Part shown: positions 10,268 through 34,075 of the stretch, in pieces
Layout of the letters: each line of letters opens with the position of its first letter
Position numbering within the stretch: position 1 is the stretch's first letter
DNA from: Paracoccaceae bacterium
GTDB taxonomy: Bacteria; Pseudomonadota; Alphaproteobacteria; Rhodobacterales; Rhodobacteraceae
DNA length: 64,000 nt
Direction of reading: 5' to 3'
Assembly (NCBI GenBank): GCA_902602765.1
Contig: CACKSH010000004.1
Coordinates: 62,001-126,000, forward strand
The notes under the pieces: generated by a model
What the model saw: only the letters and a program-made list of their open reading frames with translations
Told to the model about the DNA's origin: nothing
Database searches by the model: none
Program-made: the position numbers and the translations under genes

Positions 10268-12544
10268 TTATTTTTCTGTTAGTTTAATTTCGATCCTTCG
10301 GTTTTGAGCCAATTCTGATGCAGAAGAGCCAGATGCAACTGGCTGAAATTCGCCAAAACCAGTTGCGGCCAATCGATCTTTTGGAAATCCAAGGTCAGAA
10401 ATCATAAAACGCACTACGGAAAGAGCCCTTGCTTGACTTAGTTCCCAATTATCTTTGAATTCTGCACCCTGAACCATAGCTGTACTATCAGTGTGGCCAT
10501 CAACTCTTATTATCCAATTTAAATTTTTGGGAATTTCTTGAACCACTTGATTTAAAATGACCGCAACTTTTTGGATTTCTAACTTACCAAGCATAGACAA
10601 ATCAGCCTTCCCAACATCAAATAAGACTTCCGAAGAGAAAACAAACCTATCTCCTACAATTTTGACTCCATCCTTTCCCTCCACTAATTCTCTTATTCTT
10701 CCGAAGAAATTAGATTTATATCGTTCTAATTCTGACGCCTGGGACCTGAGAAGCTCACGCTCTGCTTGCAATCTATTATACTCAGCGACTTCAAGCTTAA
10801 TTCGCTTGTCTTCTTCAACTTGAGCTTTTGTTTCTGCCCGTTCCAGTTCTACCTCCGACGCAATCAATTTTGAATTGAGGATCGTTATCTCATTTAATTT
10901 GGCCTCTATTTCCAGCCTCAAACTTTGTTCCAGTTGCCTTTTCTTTCTTTCCTCCGACGCAACGCGGGCCAGTGCAGCGTTAAGCCTGTTGCCCAAGTTT
11001 TGAAGCTGAATTTCGTCTTCCCTATCTTTTTCCTCAGATAAAGCTAAAATCGATTGAAGGGAACTCAGCTGACGACGGAGTTCTAAAACTTGCTGGTTAA
11101 GAAGTGCCGTCTCTCGCTGGCTTTTTAACAGGCCATCAGAAGTTTCTGATAATTCCTTAGATTTTTCTTGCAACTGTGCTTGGGCCATTTGTAACAAAAT
11201 CTCTTTTTCGTTCAAATCTGAGATATTTTCTTCATTTAGCCTATCAGAAATAAGCTTGGCTGCGAGAACATCTTTAAGATTATCCAGCGCTTCCTTTTGC
11301 GACTGAACAGCGGCCCATCTAACGGCTAGCGCATCAGCCAATTTTGAACGAAGATCTTTAATATCCTGATTTCTTTTATCTTCTAACGTTTGGCGGCTAA
11401 TTTTTTGCTGCTCTAAAGTTAATAATGCGCCAGCCAAATCACCCTCGGCAATTGATAATTTTTCGCTATAATCTTCTACTGTAGCCGTTTTCTTTTTAAT
11501 ATTTTGATTTAAATCTGACAGTTCCAACTCTAGTCGTTGCTGTCTTGCCAACGAAGCAGCAAGAGCAATTTTTATCTCCTCTAACTCTGTATCAGTATTT
11601 TGAATATTCTCCTTTAGAGATTTAAGTTCGGTTTCATTGCTGCCAAGTTTTACATTGGCTGCCTCCAAAGCGATAACAGTTTGCCGCAAATCATCTTCTA
11701 TCTCCAATTTTACTGCGTCAGCAGCTGCTAAAAGGGTGAGGGTTTCCTGAGCCCGTTTTCGCTCTTCTTCCAGGGTTAATGTCATTGCTGTCAGCTCAGC
11801 GTCAGCTTCCTTTAGTCTCTTCCTAAGTTCAGCAGCAGCAGCGGCTTCAATTAGTCTCGCAGCAGCTTCATCATCAAGTGCTACTTTTAAATCCTGAATT
11901 TCGCTTGCCTGCCCCTCAATAGTTTTCTTTGCTTCACTTTTTTCCGTCTCTAGTGACGTTATTAAAAGCTCCAACGCTTCTCTCTCAGCAGCTTTCAATC
12001 TTGCTTCTTGCTCAGCCAAATCAATTTCATCGCGCGCTTGAGCTAACGTCAAAGCCAGGGCCTCTTGCTGATCTAGTAAAGACCTACGTTGAGTTTGAAG
12101 TTGATCGATTTGCGTTCTTGAGGCTGCCTGCGCTGCCAATAAATTTGCTACTTGGGTCTCAAACTGTGTGATCTGAGTTAACGCTTTGTCAAGAGCTGCT
12201 TGGTTTTCTTTATTCTGAAACCTCAAACTTTCTATTAATAGGCTTTGCTTCTCATTTATTACTTCTCTGTCGCTCAGTGTGCTGGTTAAAATTCCTAAAT
12301 CACTTTCAAGCTCAACTACCTTAGCCTTTTCAAGACCCAGAGCTTCTGAAATCGCAACAATTTCTGCCGCAAGGGCATCAAGTTCACTTTCTTGACCGGT
12401 AATAGTTTCTCTTAAGACAAATTGGATCACCATGAAAATGGTCAGTACAAACATCAACACTAACAATAAACCAGTCATTGCGTCTACAAAACCAGGCCAG
12501 ATGGATGCCTGAAATCGTTGACCTGTACGTCTCGATAGAGCCAT
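10268..12544 (-). CDS. MotB/OmpA-like protein with very long coiled coil
   Basis: This 758-residue protein has one N-terminal membrane segment (about 20-45) preceded by WPGFVDAMTG, placing Asp21 where MotB has its proton-carrying aspartate. Residues about 48-610 are dense heptad-like sequence rich in E, A, L, K and Q, almost certainly a long coiled coil. The last 130 residues are an OmpA/MotB peptidoglycan-binding domain (DGHTDSTAM, then NWELSQARALSVVRFMI). The likely topology is inner-membrane anchor, long periplasmic stalk, wall-binding tip. It starts 2 nt after the MotA/ExbB-like gene, so the two should form one stator-like complex. It is not flagellar: no flagellar genes are near. The role is unknown; related pairs are common in alphaproteobacteria but I know of no assigned function. 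Confidence 0.85.
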   Translation of the reverse strand: MALSRRTGQRFQASIWPGFVDAMTGLLLVLMFVLTIFMVIQFVLRETITGQESELDALAAEIVAISEALGLEKAKVVELESDLGILTSTLSDREVINEKQSLLIESLRFQNKENQAALDKALTQITQFETQVANLLAAQAASRTQIDQLQTQRRSLLDQQEALALTLAQARDEIDLAEQEARLKAAEREALELLITSLETEKSEAKKTIEGQASEIQDLKVALDDEAAARLIEAAAAAELRKRLKEADAELTAMTLTLEEERKRAQETLTLLAAADAVKLEIEDDLRQTVIALEAANVKLGSNETELKSLKENIQNTDTELEEIKIALAASLARQQRLELELSDLNQNIKKKTATVEDYSEKLSIAEGDLAGALLTLEQQKISRQTLEDKRNQDIKDLRSKLADALAVRWAAVQSQKEALDNLKDVLAAKLISDRLNEENISDLNEKEILLQMAQAQLQEKSKELSETSDGLLKSQRETALLNQQVLELRRQLSSLQSILALSEEKDREDEIQLQNLGNRLNAALARVASEERKKRQLEQSLRLEIEAKLNEITILNSKLIASEVELERAETKAQVEEDKRIKLEVAEYNRLQAERELLRSQASELERYKSNFFGRIRELVEGKDGVKIVGDRFVFSSEVLFDVGKADLSMLGKLEIQKVAVILNQVVQEIPKNLNWIIRVDGHTDSTAMVQGAEFKDNWELSQARALSVVRFMISDLGFPKDRLAATGFGEFQPVASGSSASELAQNRRIEIKLTEK

Positions 12545-12546
12545 AT

Positions 12547-13719
12547 TTATCTTTTCCGATCAGAACTCTGTGCGCTATTTGACTGCAAACTTTTCGCTAA
12601 ATTGGCTACCTCTTCTCTAATAGCTTTTATAGCTTCCTGCCTTCCAACGGCTATTTCCTCTGAAATATGAAGCATTTGAACATCGATTGATCTAAGCCTC
12701 ATTCTACTTTCAGCATCAATACCACCTTCGGTCATCTCTTTTGACTTTAAAAAGCCTAATAATTGTTTCTGTGATTTATTAAAATTTTCGAGCAAGCCCT
12801 CCATATTAGACCTGTTCTCTTCAAAAACTTTAATAAATTTATCCTGGATAACTGCAAGCTCTTGATCATTTTTACCTATCCGTCCTTGATCTTTATTTAG
12901 GATACGCTCCATCAATTCTATTTGATCCCCTAAGCGTTTCAAAACACCCATGAGCGCAGTGTTTTCTGTCGAAGAACTGTGCTCATCTACAGTGAGATTG
13001 AAGCTAGTGATCGTGGACAACCACTCTTCAAGTTCACGATAAAATCTATTCTGTGCTTGACCAGCGAATAATTCTAACAATCCAACTACCAAGGATCCTG
13101 CAAGCCCAATTAGCGACGATGCAAAAGCGACACCCATTCCACTCAATTGACCTTCAAGTCCACTCATCAATCTAGTAAAAACTTCAAAGCCTGTCTCACC
13201 TTCTTTTGGCGCGAGTGATCTAATCGTTTCTACAAGTGCTGGCACCGTTGTTGCTAAGCCATAAAATGTCCCTAACAGCCCTAAAAAAATCAATAAATTG
13301 ACAATGTAACGAGTTATTTCTCGTGCTTCTTCAACCCTCGTGGAAACAGACTCTAAAATTGACTGAGATGAGGAGCTCGATATTTGTATGCTTGCACCAC
13401 GTGACCTTAATAAAGCGGCTAACGGAGCTAACAACTGAGGGGCTTTTACACTACCTTTATCTGGCGTATTTATAAATTTTTCTATCCAGCGGACTGACTT
13501 AATTAATTGAAAAACTTGAACAAAACAGCTAATTAATCCTACCAAGAAAACAAAAAGTATAAAGCCGTTCAACCACAAATTGGCTGTAAACACCGCCATT
13601 ACTCGTGGCGCTGCGACAACTGTTCCTACGCTCGTAAGAGCCAAAACGCTGAGCATTAGTACAACCTGGCGTAATGGCTGAGAAAAATGCAGCTCGACCT
13701 CTTGTTCTAATTTCACCAT
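12547..13719 (-). CDS. MotA/ExbB-like proton-channel family protein
   Basis: This 390-residue membrane protein has predicted membrane segments near 20-42 and 50-75, then a pair near 140-165 (NLLIFLGLLGTFYGLATTVPAL) and 190-220 (GMGVAFASSLIGLAGSLVVGLLELF). The latter pair is the signature of the MotA/TolQ/ExbB family. The C-terminal 150 residues are cytoplasmic and helical (IELMERILNKDQGRIGKNDQELAVIQDKF), longer than in ExbB. It probably assembles as a pentamer around two copies of the downstream MotB/OmpA-like partner and conducts protons. TolR/ExbD-type partners and TonB are absent nearby. Confidence 0.85.
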   Translation of the reverse strand: MVKLEQEVELHFSQPLRQVVLMLSVLALTSVGTVVAAPRVMAVFTANLWLNGFILFVFLVGLISCFVQVFQLIKSVRWIEKFINTPDKGSVKAPQLLAPLAALLRSRGASIQISSSSSQSILESVSTRVEEAREITRYIVNLLIFLGLLGTFYGLATTVPALVETIRSLAPKEGETGFEVFTRLMSGLEGQLSGMGVAFASSLIGLAGSLVVGLLELFAGQAQNRFYRELEEWLSTITSFNLTVDEHSSSTENTALMGVLKRLGDQIELMERILNKDQGRIGKNDQELAVIQDKFIKVFEENRSNMEGLLENFNKSQKQLLGFLKSKEMTEGGIDAESRMRLRSIDVQMLHISEEIAVGRQEAIKAIREEVANLAKSLQSNSAQSSDRKR

Positions 13720-13775: not shown

Positions 13776-14300
13776 TTAGCTCTTATTTTTCCTAACCTGT
13801 TGCACCAAATAGCGCATATCTGACGAAATGATACCGAGCTCCGTCAGTTTTTTTTCGGTATTAAACAAATATGCATCATTACGACCTCGCCCTCCTTCCG
13901 CCTGGGCAATAACTCGTGCTTGTTCATCGAGCGTTAATTGGCAATACTGATCATGATCTTTCTTGATAACAAACGTGATTGCATTTACCAACCTTTTAGA
14001 CTTGGCCAATTCAATCTCCACCTCAATTTCTTCGTAAGCAGATGAAACTAATTCCCTGTCTCTCAGATAACTCAAAACTTGCAACGAGTGTTTAGAGCTA
14101 ACTTCAAAGGCTATCCCTTTGCATTTTTCGTTTGGAGACTTTTCCAATGCCAAAACCAAGCCAGGCTTATTAATAGTTCCTCTATGGTGAATCGACCACA
14201 TCGAGAAACTCCGTTTGTAATTTTTTATTTCTGCAAGCTCACTCGCTTCAAATTCAAAACCTGGGTCCCAAATTAACGAACCATAGCCAAAAACATACAT
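13776..14300 (-). CDS. ChaC-like gamma-glutamylcyclotransferase
   Basis: This 174-residue protein begins MYVFGYGSLIWDPGF, with the YGSL motif that binds the gamma-glutamyl group in the cyclotransferase fold. It continues with YKRSFSMWSIHHRGT, typical of ChaC. Family members cleave glutathione to 5-oxoproline and Cys-Gly in the cytosol. The E in AQAEGGRGRNDAYL lies in the conserved C-terminal block, but I cannot fix the catalytic glutamate by eye. It is divergent from the DUF2125 gene. Confidence 0.85.
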   Translation of the reverse strand: MYVFGYGSLIWDPGFEFEASELAEIKNYKRSFSMWSIHHRGTINKPGLVLALEKSPNEKCKGIAFEVSSKHSLQVLSYLRDRELVSSAYEEIEVEIELAKSKRLVNAITFVIKKDHDQYCQLTLDEQARVIAQAEGGRGRNDAYLFNTEKKLTELGIISSDMRYLVQQVRKNKS

Positions 14301-32129: not shown

Positions 32130-33050
32130 CTATTCAAAAGTACTACCTATTTGAATTGGAAAGCCGCGTAAAAAGTCCTCTGCAGTCTGTACGGATTTTC
32201 CAGGTCTTTGGAGTGATACAACTTCAAGCGCCCCGCCCTCACAAGCAATTACCAAAGGTTCTCCAATAACAGTACCAGGTGCTACTTTGTCATTTCCTTT
32301 TGAACTATTTGTTCTTACATTCAAAAATTTAATTCGCTCACCATTATAAAATGCCCAGGCACCTGGAAACTGTGAAAGGCCTCTGATTTGCAGCTCTATT
32401 TCCCAAAAAAACAGTGACCAATCAATCTTTGCCTCTTTTTTATCTATTTTTTTGGCATACGAAATTTCCTCGGTTGACTGAGGTTCGGGAACTAATCGAT
32501 CAAGTCTTCTTATTGATTCAATAAGTAAATTTGCCCCTAAATCAGCTAAGCGATTGCTCAAGGAACTAGTTGTGTCATCAGGCTCAATTGGCGTGATTTT
32601 AGTTGAAACAACCGGCCCCGTATCCAAGCCTGCATCCATTTTCATTATACAGACTCCAGTTTCACTATCACCAGACATTATGGATCGATGAATGGGGGCT
32701 GCCCCTCGCCATTTTGGTAAAATAGACGCATGAATATTCAAACTACCATTCTTTGGAGCCTCAATAATCTCTGATGGCAAAATCAAGCCATAGGCTACTA
32801 CAACCGCCAAATCAGCATTGAGGTCAAAAAATAAAGATTTATCTGCTTCTAATTTAAAATTTTCAGGAGTTCTAACTGGTATTTCAAACTTCAAAGCCAT
32901 TTCATGCACAGGAGTTAGATTAACTCTTTTGCCCCTTCCTGAACGCCTCGGCGGCTGACTGTATATACAGGCGATTTCATGACCGGCTTCGATTAATTTT
33001 AATAACGTTGGAACAGAGAAATCTGCTGAACCCAAAAATACTATTTTCAT
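32130..33050 (-). CDS. fmt: Methionyl-tRNA formyltransferase
   Basis: This 306-residue enzyme formylates initiator Met-tRNA using 10-formyltetrahydrofolate. It has FLGSADFSVPTL at the N-terminus and the catalytic block LNIHASILPKWRGAAPIHRSI with GLDTGPV. A C-terminal OB-like domain follows. It overlaps the deformylase-like gene by 4 nt, forming a def, def-like, fmt run on the minus strand that handles N-terminal formylation and deformylation. Confidence 0.97.
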   Translation of the reverse strand: MKIVFLGSADFSVPTLLKLIEAGHEIACIYSQPPRRSGRGKRVNLTPVHEMALKFEIPVRTPENFKLEADKSLFFDLNADLAVVVAYGLILPSEIIEAPKNGSLNIHASILPKWRGAAPIHRSIMSGDSETGVCIMKMDAGLDTGPVVSTKITPIEPDDTTSSLSNRLADLGANLLIESIRRLDRLVPEPQSTEEISYAKKIDKKEAKIDWSLFFWEIELQIRGLSQFPGAWAFYNGERIKFLNVRTNSSKGNDKVAPGTVIGEPLVIACEGGALEVVSLQRPGKSVQTAEDFLRGFPIQIGSTFE

Positions 33051-33541
33051 TTTATTTTTTTAGCCCTTCGAAGTAATATATCACGCTTCAAAGCCGAAAG
33101 CCTATCAAAATACATTACCCCATTTAAATGATCAATTTGATGCTGAACAGAGGTAGCCCATAGACCTTCAAAGTCACTTCTCACTATCATACCTTCTTTG
33201 TCTAAATATCTAACCGTTATTTTTCTTGGTCTTTTTATTTTTGCTGAAACACCTGGAAGGTTCGGACTAGCTTCAGTATGCTCATTCATTTCTTTGGATA
33301 CTTGTAAAATTTTTGGGTTTGCCATCAGTACGGCTTGTCCTCGGCTCGTCGATGCATCAACCACAGCTAAACTGAATTTTATACCAACCTGATTACAAGC
33401 GAGACCAATACATGACTTGGCTTCCATAGTGTCAGTTAAATCTACCCAGATTTTTTCTATTTTTTCGTTAATTTTCTCTACAGGCTGCACTTTTTGCAAA
33501 AGTCTTATATCTGGCCACATCAGCAGTTTCCTTACAGCCAT
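33047..33541 (-). CDS. Peptide-deformylase-like protein, catalytic residues replaced
   Basis: This 164-residue protein has the deformylase fold sequence but altered active-site motifs. Motif 1 reads GLACNQ (46-51) instead of GLAAPQ. The EGCLS motif aligns with EASPN (90-94), so the metal-ligand cysteine is Ser92. HExxH is HQIDH (134-138), so the catalytic Glu is Gln135. Both histidines remain. It is therefore unlikely to be a normal deformylase, though metal binding is not excluded. It starts at the base after the true def gene ends and overlaps fmt by 4 nt, so it is kept under coupled translation. It may regulate or bind nascent chains; that is speculation. Confidence 0.88.
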   Translation of the reverse strand: MAVRKLLMWPDIRLLQKVQPVEKINEKIEKIWVDLTDTMEAKSCIGLACNQVGIKFSLAVVDASTSRGQAVLMANPKILQVSKEMNEHTEASPNLPGVSAKIKRPRKITVRYLDKEGMIVRSDFEGLWATSVQHQIDHLNGVMYFDRLSALKRDILLRRAKKIK

Positions 33542-34075
33542 CTATTTTTCTTCTCGTGCCATCTCACGTTTAAATTTTTGCATTTTCCTCGTAATTAGCT
33601 GTCTCTTTATTGTGCTAAGGTAGTCTATAAATAGTTTCCCATCTAAATGGTCAATCTCATGCTGCACACATGTAGACCATAAACCATGAAACTCTTGCTC
33701 TTGCTCGGTTCCATTGGTATCCACCCATCTGACTTGAACAGAAGTTGGGCGCTTAATCTCTGCGAACTGCTCTGGAATGGACAAGCACCCCTCTTCATAA
33801 GTACTTTCTTCATCTGAACTAAAAACTATCTCAGGATTTATCATGACAATTGGCTTACGGTTATCAGCTTCGTCCTTTTCACAATCCATAACTATAATTC
33901 GATTTAAAACACCGATTTGAGGTGCAGCTAAACCAATGCCTGGTGCATGATACATAGTTTCTAACATATCATCTGACAATTCAATAAGTGCATCATCAAT
34001 CTCTAAGACTGGTTCACAGACTTTTTTTAACTTAGGATTTGGATGTATTAAAATAGGTCTCAGCATAGGCTTCAT
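33542..34075 (-). CDS. def: Peptide deformylase
   Basis: This 177-residue metalloenzyme removes the formyl group from nascent proteins. All three motifs are intact: GIGLAAPQ (46-53), EGCLS with Cys97, and HEIDH with His139, Glu140 and His143. It is the first gene of the def, def-like, fmt operon. The start could also be the ATG at codon 4 (MLRPILIHPN). A gap of 114 nt separates it from the divergent aminotransferase gene. Confidence 0.97.
   Translation of the reverse strand: MKPMLRPILIHPNPKLKKVCEPVLEIDDALIELSDDMLETMYHAPGIGLAAPQIGVLNRIIVMDCEKDEADNRKPIVMINPEIVFSSDEESTYEEGCLSIPEQFAEIKRPTSVQVRWVDTNGTEQEQEFHGLWSTCVQHEIDHLDGKLFIDYLSTIKRQLITRKMQKFKREMAREEK

Follow-up and report, generated by a model that had tools for sequence, protein, structure and literature searches.

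A MotA/MotB-like gene pair of Alphaproteobacteria with a coiled-coil shaft whose length differs in heptad steps

What does a stator-like membrane protein do with a coiled coil of some 570 residues between its membrane anchor and its OmpA domain? The question is raised by two genes in a 64,000-nucleotide stretch of a Paracoccaceae bacterium genome (contig CACKSH010000004.1, positions 62,001 to 126,000; hereafter the window), both on the minus strand and 2 bp apart: the upstream gene, A (12547..13719 in the open reading frame list, 390 amino acids), and the MotB-like gene B (10268..12544, 758 amino acids), whose product has a membrane helix, a coiled-coil shaft and an OmpA domain (NF006542, PF00691). 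An initial annotation, made from the sequence alone, had placed a MotA/ExbB-like plus MotB/OmpA-like pair at 10268-13719, and both frames lie exactly there, the OmpA domain being recognised by PF00691. Our reading, to which we assign a probability of about 0.6, is that the pair is a wall-anchored, proton-driven rotary motor of the 5:2 type, forming a separate, mainly alphaproteobacterial branch of MotA/TolQ/ExbB. What is new here is the range of shaft length, with its whole- and half-heptad steps, in 164 distinct proteins.

As a measure of shaft length we took the distance between the membrane Asp and the Phe in the first strand of the OmpA domain, in 198 B frames, of which 164 remained after removal of 34 duplicates. 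These proteins were chosen by the transmembrane motif, leaning to high-scoring matches, so that the set is itself no test of Asp conservation. The distance ranges more than 4-fold, from 169 to 781 residues, which at 1.485 Å per residue corresponds to spans of 16.6 to 107.5 nm (median 36.8); 118 of the 164 shafts are longer than 25 nm and 12 are longer than 80 nm. The median distance is 579.5 residues among the 34 proteins of the window's own family, Rhodobacteraceae, a sample that favours long shafts because its loci are the best matches to the 758-residue B, and 263 residues among the 130 proteins from elsewhere.

Taken modulo 7, the 164 distances fall into classes 0 to 6 with counts of 20, 22, 6, 1, 101, 13 and 1, while moduli 2 to 6 and 8 to 12 give roughly flat distributions. 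For the 88 unique lengths the counts are 17, 15, 5, 1, 40, 9 and 1 (chi-square p 6e-17), and outside the window's family class 4 holds 91 of 130 proteins. When each protein was paired with its closest free relative, 18 of the 82 pairs were equal in length and 64 differed; the difference modulo 7 was 0 in 31 of the latter, 3 or 4 in 27, 1 or 6 in 3 and 2 or 5 in 3, where 9, 18, 18 and 18 would be expected (chi-square p 1e-17). A coiled coil accepts steps of 7, a whole heptad, and of 3 or 4, a stammer or stutter. No heptad stepping was seen in two control distances, the tail of A (49 proteins, 21 of 70 having been dropped as being without Gly at both landmarks) and the Pro-rich linker of the product of a third gene, C, described below (20 of 33 proteins, with two plainly misplaced by the motif search). 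Shared ancestry alone was considered as the source of the modulo-7 result and rejected, because the result persists in the nearest-relative pairs and outside the window's family and is absent from both controls. From one species to another, nearly all differences in shaft length are whole or half heptads.

The heptad phase near the membrane is identical in every length class (resultant 0.90-0.99), and near the OmpA domain it is fixed in classes 0, 1 and 4 (0.98-0.99), which together hold 143 of the 164 proteins; classes 3 and 6 enter this register analysis with one protein each. Under a register model 91 of 101 class-4 proteins require no jump, and one jump of the right size explains 18 of 22 class-1 and 11 of 20 class-0 proteins. 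Across the 164 proteins the linkers hold 8 prolines in 45,467 residues, and the core positions of the shaft are rich in Leu at d, with Leu, Ile or Val at a, a pattern which, as far as sequence can tell, is that of parallel dimers. Since the register holds near the membrane and, for most of the proteins, near the OmpA domain as well, the shaft has the look of a single uninterrupted coiled coil, one that in most species would be too long to stand upright. Folding of the shaft into a hairpin was rejected, since the number of heptads is as often odd as even (19 odd and 21 even among the unique lengths). Rods longer than the usual width of the periplasm must lie tilted or sideways, and we infer that the evidence points to a continuous coil in such a tilted or lateral position. 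The initial annotation had held that the coil exceeds the periplasm unless it folds or bundles; the excess length stands, and the equal odd and even heptad counts and the end registers speak against fold-back or bundling.

In the window protein the shaft (residues ~48-621, ~570 residues, 10682..12403, minus strand) would span ~84 nm at the same rise, close to the ~80 nm given earlier for a fully helical coil. Residues 48-610 contain no proline, and at a period of 3.5 the hydrophobic power of this linker reaches 14.7, the highest value among 20,000 shuffles being 9.8, in line with the very long periplasmic coiled coil that had been claimed for B. A short-window heptad test of the same linker is weak, the 95th percentile of shuffles being exceeded in 8-10% of windows, and only the whole-length analysis is decisive for its coiled-coil periodicity. 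AlphaFold2 predicts a helix over residues 16-621, with low-to-moderate confidence and four short breaks, and the +4 stutters that the register model places near residues 392 and 541 lie close to two of these breaks (382-392 and 528-534). A third jump near residue 576 (+1) is less certain and is not called for by the length class. Internal DNA tandem repeats were considered as a source of the length of this B and rejected, none being found at score 30.

Outside the shaft, B has what is expected of a MotB-like second subunit, namely an N-terminal helix with a conserved Asp, followed later by an OmpA domain. The helix, placed by eye at residues ~15-45 (12410..12502, minus strand), carries the motif WPGFVDA with Asp21 (codon 12482-12484, minus strand), the residue singled out in the initial annotation, and 69 of 70 distinct pairs, all except L139, have retained the membrane Asp; loci L031-L034, near-copies of the window, were left out of the conservation counts. 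The OmpA domain (residues 641-749, 10298..10624, minus strand; PF00691 at 2.9e-16) contains GHTD and an Arg, which we take, after the OmpA/Pal literature, to be the peptidoglycan-binding motif, and GHxD is present in all 164 distinct B proteins. The window B scores 638.3 bits against the curated whole-protein cut-off of 388 of NCBIfam NF006542 (PRK09039), also matches the four sister models, there below the cut-offs, and is matched by the ZorB3 model at 2.2e-20. The names of models NF006542 to NF006546 ('peptidoglycan -binding protein') state no motor role, partner or shaft length. At one locus (L137:5032-5769) a B-like protein has a membrane helix and a coiled coil, and no OmpA domain was seen in it.

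The A protein has four membrane helices, placed by eye at residues ~19-41, 48-70, 135-157 and 192-218, and after the fourth a predicted cytoplasmic helical tail of ~170 residues. In its core, formed by the third and fourth helices (residues 135-218, 13066..13317, minus strand), G147, L148, G150, T151, G154 and G205 are the same in all of the 70 A proteins aligned. The stator-like pair that had been claimed is supported, and so is the conservation of its membrane Asp. PF01618 matches 30 of the 42 A proteins of the alignment at E<=0.01, weakly (best 6.6e-6), and the PADLOC ZorA models, which among the profiles tried match A best, find all 42 (best 5.1e-16); a profile search of the PDB returned, among the 60 of 83 matches listed, only chance coiled-coil matches in the tail. 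In a FastTree phylogeny of 34 sequences the A family stands apart from TolQ/ExbB, flagellar-type MotA and Zorya-III-type sequences, and the branch to these has a support of 0.97 and also takes in the long-tailed A of L138, which lies beside a TolC-like gene; many inner branches of this tree are weak. Five MotA sequences, taken as flagellar by length (289 amino acids) and score, form a branch of their own, to which A does not belong. We take A to be a distant relative within MotA/TolQ/ExbB, set apart from all the TolQ, ExbB, flagellar MotA and Zorya-III-type sequences in the comparison.

Co-occurrence across the Alphaproteobacteria, which the initial annotation had named as a check, is borne out. 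The A query has matches in 77 of 115 genomes of the class (74 at E<=3e-24), with one A per genome in those 77, and in 74 of 84 A matches B follows within 154 bp downstream; two further matches reach the end of a contig before B is seen whole (L093, L134) and three are odd (L116, L137, L138). In the window's family the B search matches 198 of 198 genomes, six of them no better than any OmpA domain would, which leaves 192 at ortholog level, and in four relatives of the host, a Rhodobacteraceae lineage that record names suggest to be marine, B is 85-98% identical and always 758 amino acids long. Twelve genomes of 0.7-1.4 Mb, chosen for having B, have all kept A, each with a further PF01618 protein of TolQ/ExbB type besides; 11 of them hold no other PF01618 frame of flagellar MotA length, and G317 has one possible frame of 287 amino acids.

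In the phylum, an A profile matches 77 of 299 genomes at 1e-10, 59 within the class and 18 outside. Five of these 18 match at E<=1e-98 (G641, G700, G714, G733, G834), with B adjoining A in the three examined, and the other 13 match more weakly. At six of the 13 weaker loci (L287-L292) a long A-like frame of 675-1074 amino acids lies beside a MotB-like frame of 213-227 amino acids (444 as called in L290); DUF3348 is present in 3 of the 4 upstream genes that were tested, and the two long A-like proteins that were tested both contain DUF802, which likens these loci to Zorya type III (type after PMC8565338). Two other relatives of A stand in a different setting, one, a 1499-residue frame, beside type I secretion-like genes that include a TolC-like one by eye (L138:5625-11255), the other on an Arcobacter plasmid beside annotated TolC and HlyD (L068). 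Both may, we presume, be SiiAB-like.

If the pair is indeed a motor, five A subunits would surround two B membrane helices, Asp21 of B would carry protons, and B would continue as an unbroken, probably parallel, two-stranded coiled coil ending in peptidoglycan-binding OmpA domains. With these domains on the peptidoglycan, B would be held by the wall while the A ring turned against it; by way of its cytoplasmic tail, A would act on a partner, probably in the course of envelope growth or division. Continuity and register would be required of the shaft but no fixed length, and any shaft exceeding the width of the periplasm would have to lie tilted or sideways. One could also speculate, and we consider this rather unlikely, that the shaft works as a rigid lever, emerging from the motor to the side and taking hold of the wall at a distance of tens of nanometres, serving as a torque-reaction arm or, if B turns, as a periplasmic crank sweeping along the wall. 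We know of no torque-reaction arm of this design in bacterial stators. With a motor torque of ~40 pN nm (PMC9389320), an 80-nm arm would lower the force on the wall anchor to ~0.5 pN; shaft length would drift freely and breaks in the coil would be selected against, both as observed.

Several observations weigh against the motor reading or the continuity of its shaft. In class 5, the class of the window (13 proteins), the register lock at the OmpA end is weaker (0.81), and in class 2 (6 proteins) there is no lock at the C-terminal end (R 0.17); the register model finds no jump in 3 of these 6 although their length calls for one, and in the window protein the computed jumps (+4, +4, +1) overshoot the length class by one residue. 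The sequences at the shaft ends are conserved, so that a lock at either end, taken alone, is what homology predicts, and the argument therefore rests on the stepped length of the variable middle, which joins the two ends in register. The AlphaFold2 predictions, whose alignment rows are near-identical sequences (the window and four relatives 85-98% identical), are weak for B, with a mean predicted local distance difference test score of 56 and four helix breaks, and give no usable model of A, with a score of 38. The window A has no Pfam or NCBIfam match, its PF01618 score in the genome search being a sub-cut-off 15.8 bits. Complete genomes in which no pair was found exist in several families, G407 of the window's own family being one, and the pair is thus not universally needed. 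Finally, five A genes have no B-like gene downstream (L075, L076, L084, L124, L131), where B has possibly been lost or moved.

Among known systems, flagellar MotA/MotB share with the pair the four helices of A, the Asp in the helix of B and the OmpA anchor; A differs in lying outside the flagellar branch, in its longer C-terminal tail and in the lack of a flagellar context in the window. Flagellar MotB has a flexible plug-linker. TolQ/TolR and ExbB/ExbD are like the pair in the GLxGT motif of the inner helices and probably belong to the same superfamily. TolQ and ExbB have three membrane helices, and TolR and ExbD are short second subunits without an OmpA domain. A hint of function comes only from the non-flagellar motA/motB pair of Komagataeibacter hansenii, with products of 348 and 321 amino acids, a four-helix A and a B with one membrane helix and an OmpA domain (PMC6570709, PMC6315621), which by sizes, order, topology and a published BLAST table is a probable homologue. 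Its fusions are polar and its overexpression gives longer, chained cells (PMC6570709); its MotB shaft would be short, and the phenotype known to us comes from overexpression strains. Since NCBIfam already holds the B family and a probable member has been studied, the possibly undescribed envelope motor of the initial annotation does not stand as a categorically new machine.

In many lineages a third gene, C, lies just upstream of A (48 of 76 loci, with a gap of at most 124 bp in 47 and of 1369 bp in L086). Its product is exported, judged by eye from its signal, has a Pro-rich stretch in most cases and carries a degenerate OmpA-like domain: GHTD of the wall-binding motif is found in 0 of 33 C proteins, the site of its Asp being Asp in 4, another residue in 23 and not placeable by pattern in 6. 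The C count leaves out L116, L137, L138, L139 and L031-L034, and L137 and L139 also have a C-like match near A. C ranges from 79 to 1125 amino acids as called, some frames being cut by contig ends (among L073-L147, for example L088:4882-5874), and its mature N terminus shows, by eye, a motif like VxVDxxxLDxLG. C is absent from the window locus; in the window's family six of seven genomes have no match at E<=1e-6 and the seventh has generic OmpA matches only (best 5.5e-8).

Could the pair do something other than rotate against the wall? A structural tether or spacer, in which a closed or leaky A-B channel does not turn and the coil links the inner membrane to the wall or spreads load, would sit well with a shaft that varies more than 4-fold in length while keeping its continuity, and no rotor partner was recognised among the neighbouring genes; a passive tether would not, however, need an A membrane core and a B Asp that are nearly invariant, and we regard it as unlikely. 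An auxiliary Tol-like system, in which B would move or retain a partner in the outer membrane, in many lineages C, draws on the position of C upstream of A, its export signal and its OmpA-like domain without GHTD, and on the long chained cells of K. hansenii (PMC6570709). Such a system is quite unlikely, given that C is missing from the window's family and that a TolQ/ExbB-type gene separate from A is found in 4 of 5 close relatives searched, the fifth giving a short partial match only. Loss of Tol in the host clade was rejected on these same four clear matches; the window assembly itself, 82% complete, has no PF01618 match at E<=1e-3.

Anti-phage defence of the Zorya kind, with the long coil on B instead of A, has the profile evidence on its side. 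The ZorA and ZorB3 matches to A and B support the likeness to ZorA/ZorB that had been noted earlier, with the tail on the other subunit, and among the next relatives by profile are the six loci with a long-tailed A and a MotB-like gene, where DUF3348, the ZorF domain, recurs (PMC8565338). ZorAB is a 5:2 complex with a wall-binding ZorB and an essential Asp, as seen by cryo-electron microscopy (PMC11890865), and this layout is the one that we propose for the pair. Zorya differs in that its long coil is on ZorA, inside the cell, with defence effectors adjacent, and in that its component sizes are well conserved within each family, unlike the variable shaft described here (PMC11890865). Types I and II have ZorC/D or ZorE and a long ZorA tail, whereas the window has housekeeping neighbours and an A tail of ~170 residues; type III has DUF3348 and DUF2894 flanks (PMC8565338), where the window has ClpA and ChaC. 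No defence gene or Zorya effector was recognised beside the pair, whose neighbours with Pfam matches are housekeeping genes here and whose conserved neighbours elsewhere include EF-P. Defence genes are usually patchy in distribution, and an ortholog-level B in 192 of 198 genomes of one family, a single A in each of 77 matching genomes and the retention of A in all twelve small genomes chosen for B make this explanation highly improbable.

Within the open-licence literature searched, as far as its available text goes, the K. hansenii papers are the only ones judged to treat a probable member, and no report turned up that describes shaft lengths in steps, a register held at both ends, the third gene or the distribution across the class. 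A 2025 survey of MotAB lists non-flagellar pairs of unknown function, and this pair is not among them in the part available (PMC12505986). Nor is the pair treated in the available text of PMC12204202, PMC9389320 or PMC7327166 (the S. meliloti Tol-Pal and Rgs proteins), or of PMC10246785, apart from a 235-residue MotA/TolQ/ExbB protein listed in the last.

The surroundings of the pair in the window have a housekeeping character as far as neighbours have Pfam matches. A ChaC-like gene (13776..14300, minus strand, Pfam) lies directly upstream of A and ClpA (Pfam) flanks the pair on the other side; mreB, mreC and PBP2-like and RodA-like genes are found ~40 kb away. Of 54 open reading frames of at least 150 amino acids, 46 were covered by the Pfam scan (7 at E<=1e-3, 39 at E<=1e-10) and the remaining 8 were judged by eye or position (2 ATP synthase subunits, 4 oligopeptide-type ABC transporter genes and 2 overlapping frames). 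Besides B, that scan of 46 gave no flagellar, Tol, Pal or Ton family, and no tolQ, tolR, tolA, tolB or pal of a Tol-Pal cluster, which agrees with the earlier statement that no flagellar, TolB/Pal or TonB gene is nearby. The ChaC gene also precedes A in 3 of 4 same-family loci examined (L069 by eye, L070 and L071 by Pfam), an inositol monophosphatase gene does so in Sinorhizobium meliloti, whose pair at L066 has a short shaft, and in 29 of 69 loci a gene of the EF-P cluster (representative elongation factor P by Pfam) lies upstream. An M23-type peptidase gene stands between B and clpA at L069:9389-10357 (Pfam) and L072:10338-11300 (by eye), and the window has two adjoining peptide deformylase genes at 33047-34075.

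If our reading is right, about two-thirds of the sampled genomes of the class would carry a stator-like motor beside Tol, Ton and flagella. The finding raises the question of how a rod of 40-100 nm fits into the periplasm, and what that rod holds or turns. It also offers a natural experiment, in which evolution has produced shafts of ~17 to 108 nm while mostly retaining the register of the coiled coil.

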